NCBI RefSeq assembly: GCF_003288845.1
Contig: NZ_NHYN01000001.1
Span: 1 to 64,000 of the forward strand
From: Helicobacter monodelphidis
GTDB lineage: Bacteria > Campylobacterota > Campylobacteria > Campylobacterales > Helicobacteraceae
Direction: 5' to 3'
DNA: 64,000 nt
Shown here: positions 13,144 to 51,459 of the stretch, one piece after another
Numbering within the stretch: the stretch's first letter is position 1
How the letters are laid out: the number at the start of each line of letters is the position of its first letter
The notes under the pieces: model-generated
The model's input: the letters and a program-made list of their open reading frames with translations, nothing else
Told to the model about the DNA's origin: nothing
Databases searched by the model: none
Translations under genes and position numbers: made by a program

Positions 13144-13220
13144 TGGTATGCCCAGAGGGATTCAAACCCCCGACCTACAGGACCGCAACCTGTTGCTCTA
13201 TTCAGCTGAGCTATGGACAC
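13144..13220 (-). tRNA. tRNA-Arg (anticodon GCG)
   Basis: A 77-nt cloverleaf can be folded by hand on the minus strand. The acceptor pairs GTGTCCA with TGGGCAT, the D arm is GCTC/GAGC, the anticodon stem ACAGG/CCTGT holds loop TTGCGGT, and the T arm contains GGTTTGAATCC. CCA is encoded. The anticodon GCG reads CGC and CGU arginine codons. There is no integrase next to it, so no sign that it serves as an attachment site here. Confidence 0.95.
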
Positions 13221-13333
13221 ACAAAATTCAAGAGTTCAAATTCTAACATTTTAACCTTTAAAGATCTTAAAAATGTCCATAAAAAATTCAAATTTATGCT
13301 ATGATACCAAAAAATTTTAGGGCAAAGGTAACA

Positions 13334-14386
13334 ATGAATAAAAATAAACTCACACAATTTGTGTGTGTGGCAGGTTGAGCAGGAAAAGTAGGTCCGGGTG
13401 ATCTCTCACAAATTGCCTCGCTAAACCCAAAGAGACATACAGATTTATTAGTTGGTTTTGAAAACAACGATGATGCGGCAGTTATCCAGTTAACTGATGA
13501 AATTGCCACTCTGATGACAGCAGATTTTATTACTCCTGTCGTTGATGATCCTTTCATTTATGGACAAATTGCAGCAGCAAACGCCCTGAGCGATATTTTT
13601 GCAATGGGTGGTGAAGCTAAGAATGTATTAAACCTCCTAATGTGGGATTCCCAACATATCTCTAAAGAGGAATTACAAGAAATTCTTAGAGGTGGCTTAG
13701 ATAAAACTGAAGAAGCAGGGGCAATTCTTGTCGGTGGACACACGATTGAAGATAGAGAACAAAAATACGGATTGAGTGTAATGGGCATTGCCCACCCTAA
13801 ACATTTTTGGAAAAACAATACTCCAAAAATAGGTGATTCTCTCATTCTAACTAAACCATTAGGGAGTGGCATTCTCACAACAGCTATTAAAGCAGGAATG
13901 GCATCGCCACAAACTACACAAAAAATTGCTAATATTATGTCAGAGCTAAACCTACAAGCAAAGAGAGTCGCACAAAATTTTGACATTCATGCCTGTACAG
14001 ACATTACAGGATTTGGGCTTATCGGGCATACTTTAGAAATGCTAGGTGGATTAACCCCCCATTCAAGAGAATATTCAGCTCTTTTCTTTAGCGGAGAAAT
14101 TCCCATTGTGCAAGAGGCTATAGAATTTATGGAAATGGGCATTATTCCTGGTGGAAGCTATAAAAACAAAGATACATTTTTGCCTTTTGTGGAGTTTAAA
14201 AGTAATTGTGCCAAAGAACAATCTTTACTTTTTTTTGATGCTCAAACTTCAGGAGGTTTACTATTTGCCTTACAGCATTCACAATCTATAAAACTTGTTG
14301 ATTCTTTGCAAAAACAGGGTATTCAAGCTAAAATTATAGGTGAAATCATACCTTTTAACAAAACATATCCCATCATCTTAGGTTAA
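13334..14386 (+). CDS. selD: selenide, water dikinase with selenocysteine (in-frame TGA)
   Basis: The real gene starts at ATG 13334 (AAAGG upstream) and is 350 residues long with TGA at codon 15 (13376-13378). The context LTQFVCVAG-U-AGKVGP matches the SelD active-site loop, where Cys or Sec is followed by an essential Lys. The rest is a full SelD: DDAAVIQL, TADFITPVVDDPF, GGHTIEDREQKYGLSVMG, TDITGFGLIGH and DAQTSGGLL. SelD makes selenophosphate from selenide and ATP for selenocysteine tRNA. Read without recoding, the gene would appear to begin only at 13514, losing its catalytic residue. Confidence 0.93.
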
Positions 14387-46170: not shown

Positions 46171-46283
46171 AACGCTCTCTTTAGACCTATGCAATGAGGC
46201 TGAAAAGTAATACTTCAGGGTGGGAACACAGCAGAGTCCTTTTTTGTTTTGTGTGCCGTAGGTATCTGAAGAGGGTGCTTTTT
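46171..46283 (+). ncRNA. ffs: signal recognition particle RNA (4.5S)
   Basis: The conserved SRP domain IV is visible at 46216-46234: CAGG, GTG, tetraloop GGAA, CAC, AGCAG. It has the same form as the CAGG-UCC-GGAA-GGA-AGCAG core of E. coli. Helices nest outward: ACT/AGT, AAAAG/CTTTT, GGC/GCC, ACCTA (46185-46189) with TAGGT (46259-46263), AGA/TCT, and CTCTTT/AAGAG. A T run at 46279-46283 ends the gene. Ends are approximate. A separate hairpin AGCGTT/AACGCT lies just upstream (46141-46175). Confidence 0.85.
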
Positions 46284-51272: not shown

Positions 51273-51459
51273 GTTTTTTCCTTTCATTATGTAGTGTGGA
51301 GAAATTGTATCATAAAATAATGAATAATTTGCAAAAACTTTGATTAATTTTTAAATTTATTAAAAAAATAGGCTAAAAAGATTGTTTTGATACTTTTTGT
51401 TAGTTATTATAAAATATAATAAGCGTTTATTATTTTGACTGACAAGATTGGAGAGTTTA

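Follow-up and report, generated by a model that had tools for sequence, protein, structure and literature searches.

The selD gene carried by the 64-kb stretch of DNA analyzed here (the window) almost certainly encodes a selenophosphate synthetase that contains selenocysteine (Sec), the insertion of Sec at its single in-frame UGA being predicted from the sequence. The features of this locus are as follows:

13324–13328, + strand: Shine-Dalgarno-like AAAGG, 5 nt before the selD ATG, read from the sequence.
13334–14386, + strand: selD, the gene for selenide water dikinase, 350 codons long including a single TGA in frame, based on the translation with TGA as U, the TIGR00476 model, and the SelD structures 2yye and 3u0o.
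13376–13378, + strand: UGA codon 15 of selD, at the catalytic Cys/Sec position, putatively read as selenocysteine.
13390–13404, + strand: apical hairpin of a bSECIS, with stem AGGUC/GAUCU, loop CGGGU, and the invariant G at 13396, based on pair conservation and synonymous-site constraint.
13514–14386, + strand: shortened frame given by a standard ORF caller, without U15, K18, and the Gly-rich N-terminus.

When counted from the start codon (ATG, 13334–13336), the TGA is codon 15, its translated context is MNKNKLTQFVCVAG(U)AGKVGPGDL with the motif AGUAGK, and no other stop is encountered until the TAA ending at 14386. The read-through protein matched the SelD equivalog model TIGR00476 over its full length (344.5 bits for a cut-off of 125, E = 5e-103), and the solved SelD chains 2yye and 3u0o aligned along it, with the TGA at their catalytic Cys position. 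Comparison with the genes of relatives likewise placed the in-frame UGA where homologues carry Cys or Sec. Residues A13, G14, U/C15, A16, and K18 were invariant in an alignment of 11 SelD sequences, and the N-terminal Gly-rich loop contains both the catalytic Cys/Sec and the conserved Lys (A-G-U/C-x-x-K). An earlier note on this DNA had described SelD as a selenoprotein with TGA at codon 15 in AGUAGK, preceded by a normal start and ribosome site, and had warned that standard annotation would miss its first 60 codons; all of these statements are borne out, the standard ORF list starting the gene at the ATG at 13514. That functional SelD begins at this internal ATG, the upstream frame being a leader only, is the outcome of a mechanical ORF list but is very improbable, as the residues encoded upstream match SelD position for position, also at the invariant sites given above, and align with the solved chains, and the shorter product would be without the catalytic residue.

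A tRNA-Arg gene (anticodon GCG) is found just upstream of selD and in divergent orientation (13144–13220, − strand), and the bacterial small SRP RNA is located at 46178–46275 on the + strand (RF00169, 53.8 bits). These two were the sole matches of an Rfam scan of the window.

The conservation of the codon was analyzed in a panel of 59 related genomes, including the window's own, 35 of which have selD. Exactly one in-frame TGA was present in 29 of these 35 genes, and the codon together with its motif was inspected directly in 26 of them (24 genes, plus L031 and L042). TGA was absent in the six others; the codon was TGC or TGT (Cys) in the four that were read directly. Among the usual SelD motifs of the group are AGUAGK and AGUAAK. 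A motif scan of the nearest 80 titled genome records, which belong to several phyla, gave 63 TGA rows versus 15 TGC/TGT rows, one of the latter (TGC, L105) being a stray match in another frame inside a TGA locus. A search of plasmid DNA for SelD returned distant matches only.

These data bear on two other readings of the TGA, a nonsense mutation in a selD pseudogene and a TGC or TGT misread through an error of sequencing or assembly. A single substitution separates TGA from either Cys codon, and the genome assembly consists of 131 contigs. However, a lone sequencing error is ruled out by the conservation of the TGA in relatives, the frame is otherwise intact with conserved catalytic motifs, and both the RNA-level selection downstream of the TGA and the Sec machinery of the genome (see below) argue in the same direction, so that an explanation of this kind has a negligible chance of being correct.

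The Gly codon directly before the UGA (codon −1, 13373–13375 in the window) was GGT in 22 of 24 Sec-SelD genes, when 6.4 were expected (z = 7.5). This preference lies outside the hairpin, which does not explain it, and possibly reflects an effect of the UGA context on decoding.

The hairpin of selD begins 11 nt after the UGA and consists of a 5-bp stem closed by a 5-nt loop (AGGUC-CGGGU-GAUCU). The folding energy of the single sequence that follows the window's TGA showed no excess over codon-resampled versions (z = +0.37) and was thus uninformative, which is why comparative evidence was used. The statistics were obtained from 24 ungapped Sec-SelD genes, the null for the pairing being synonymous codon resampling with 400 replicates. 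Standard pairs were observed in 120 of 120 stem positions, versus 90.0 ± 3.1 under the null, with a maximum of 99 in the 400 replicates. The third base of codon +6 was G in all 24 genes (always CTG or CCG), although only 3.7 were expected from the codon usage of each gene (z = 12.1), and that of codon +5 was T in 24/24 (7.5 expected, z = 7.9). Synonymous constraint was also detected at codons +8, +9, and +10 (z of 6.7, 5.0, and 7.6, respectively) and weakened farther downstream of codon +10. Several changes affecting both partners of a pair left the pairing intact: the third stem pair was changed from G-C to C-G in L027 and L033, together with an Asp to Glu replacement, and was A-U in L022, while L042 has an A-U stem pair made with a TTA leucine codon. 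The earlier note had pointed to an AGGTCC stretch 11 nt after the TGA as recalling an apical loop on a weak stem; its position was correct, but AGGUC makes up the 5′ strand of a conserved 5-bp stem. As to the fold prediction proposed there, the energy of the single sequence was unexceptional, and the hairpin is supported by the comparison of relatives.

The four Cys-SelD genes retained 19 of 20 stem pairs, which may represent a remnant or a constraint imposed by the amino acid sequence. SECIS-like remnants after Sec-to-Cys conversion have been reported, with FdhA and HesB-like examples (PMC1794560). Three Cys-SelD genes (L017, L034, and L035, from G011, G054, and G043, respectively) come from genomes that have both tRNA-Sec and SelB, and each retains the full hairpin after its Cys codon; this is the pattern that a recent conversion of Sec to Cys would be expected to leave.

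A scan of the window yielded one further TGA-plus-hairpin candidate, at 51436 (+ strand), where a weak hairpin follows the TGA and a frame of 700 codons comes next. It was rejected as a Sec site: its TGA lies in leader sequence, a short way before an ordinary ATG start, and is preceded by only 15 open codons.

The window's own genome (99.99% complete) was found to contain the following genes:

Contig C39, 41826–41918: tRNA-Sec, 51.8 bits, above the gathering score; ARAGORN tRNA-SeC with anticodon TCA.
Contig C41, 8165–9964: selB, 258.7 bits.
Contig C41, 9994–11325: selA, 524 bits.
Contig C109: fdhA, with an in-frame TGA in QARIUHSPTVAG.
Contig C65: mnmH.

The selA and selB genes adjoin on the same strand, about 30 bp apart. 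The fdhA gene has a hairpin 13 nt after its TGA (UCGCC-GGUGU-GGCGA), also with 5 bp and a 5-nt loop, so that the Sec-decoding trait includes a further putative selenoprotein, FdhA, beside SelD; no SelW-like protein (PF10262) was detected in this genome. The working selA/selB/selC system that the earlier note took to be implied by its reading is therefore represented by genes for tRNA-Sec, SelB, and SelA, the genome search it called for having recovered both tRNA-Sec and SelB, and the Sec-containing formate dehydrogenase that it anticipated elsewhere has its counterpart in fdhA.

Among the 29 Sec-SelD genomes, tRNA-Sec (E ≤ 1e-7) was found in 28, the exception being a 58%-complete assembly, and SelB (1e-60) in 26, the exceptions being two assemblies that are about 60% complete and G031. 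At the same threshold, SelB was found in no genome of the 59-genome panel that is without selD. This co-occurrence of SelD-UGA and tRNA-Sec, together with the presence of tRNA-Sec, SelA, SelB, and a SECIS-type hairpin, argues against a near-cognate decoding of the UGA as another amino acid, such as Cys or Trp; Cys versions of SelD do exist, but we consider such a reading to be extremely unlikely.

In G031, which belongs to the same family, the SelB match (C1:426406–424608, minus strand) is split across two different frames, the pieces covering positions 2–122 and 153–579, in open frames that are 146 and 488 aa long. The same genome has a TGA-containing selD, a tRNA-Sec match just below the gathering score, and a SelA match that begins at position 47. 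This may be due to decaying Sec machinery or to a sequencing error.

In the established bacterial pathway, the UGA is decoded as Sec through the binding of SelB and its Sec-tRNA(Sec) to the hairpin (PMC1794560, PMC4607533). From the gene set found here, we infer that SelB carrying GTP and Sec-tRNA(Sec) would bind the selD hairpin and would compete with release factor 2 to insert Sec at codon 15. Within the flexible N-terminal loop, the selenol of this Sec, together with the conserved Lys18, would then help to turn selenide and ATP into selenophosphate, Sec15 and Lys18 presumably having catalytic roles in SelD enzymes. Selenophosphate would supply SelA for the synthesis of the Sec of FdhA and of SelD itself, and MnmH for the formation of 2-selenouridine in tRNA. 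Full-length SelD would require SelD's own product, and for this reason, it is conceivable that UGA decoding at codon 15 acts as a selenium-sensing switch setting the SelD level, although we regard this possibility as rather unlikely.

The genome thus has the selenocysteine trait, and an annotation treating every UGA as a stop would shorten or split selD, and probably fdhA. The Sec-SelD described here adds a further case, from a Helicobacteraceae genome, of an arrangement that is already published and ordinary for the group (PMC4607533). For the SelD genes of this group, the comparison of relatives demonstrates the SECIS hairpin cleanly at the codon level, but the phenomenon is itself well established.

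Two solved enzymes can be compared with the window's SelD. The 2yye chain, like 2zod a structure of Aquifex aeolicus SelD, aligned over residues 6–342; its motif SGCAAKVGPGDL matches AGUAGKVGPGDL of the window, and the deposited chain has a Cys where the window's selD has UGA. The 3u0o chain, Escherichia coli SelD, belongs to the same enzyme family and aligned over the full length, but has a second Cys two residues after the catalytic one (AGCGCK versus AGUAGK). The SECIS of E. coli fdhF is a hairpin downstream of UGA with GGUCU in its apical loop. Both hairpins lie downstream of the UGA and GGUCY appears to recur in them, but the AGGUC of the window belongs to the stem, as its 5′ strand, with CGGGU as the loop, whereas GGUCU is in the apical loop of fdhF, and the window's hairpin is nearer to the UGA.

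The closest similarities are with epsilonproteobacteria, including Helicobacter, for which Sec-SelD with a common SECIS hairpin and frequently shortened database entries have been described (PMC4607533). The published hairpin, of 5/6 bp with an invariant loop G, is located shortly after the TGA (PMC4607533), and the present case is alike in its UGA at the catalytic position, its short hairpin with the invariant loop G, and its selABC genes. H. mustelae has kept the Sec trait with SelD as its sole selenoprotein, having lost Fdh (PMC4607533), whereas the window's genome has retained FdhA-Sec; the Sec-SelD of the window otherwise shows no difference of substance from those published for epsilonproteobacteria.
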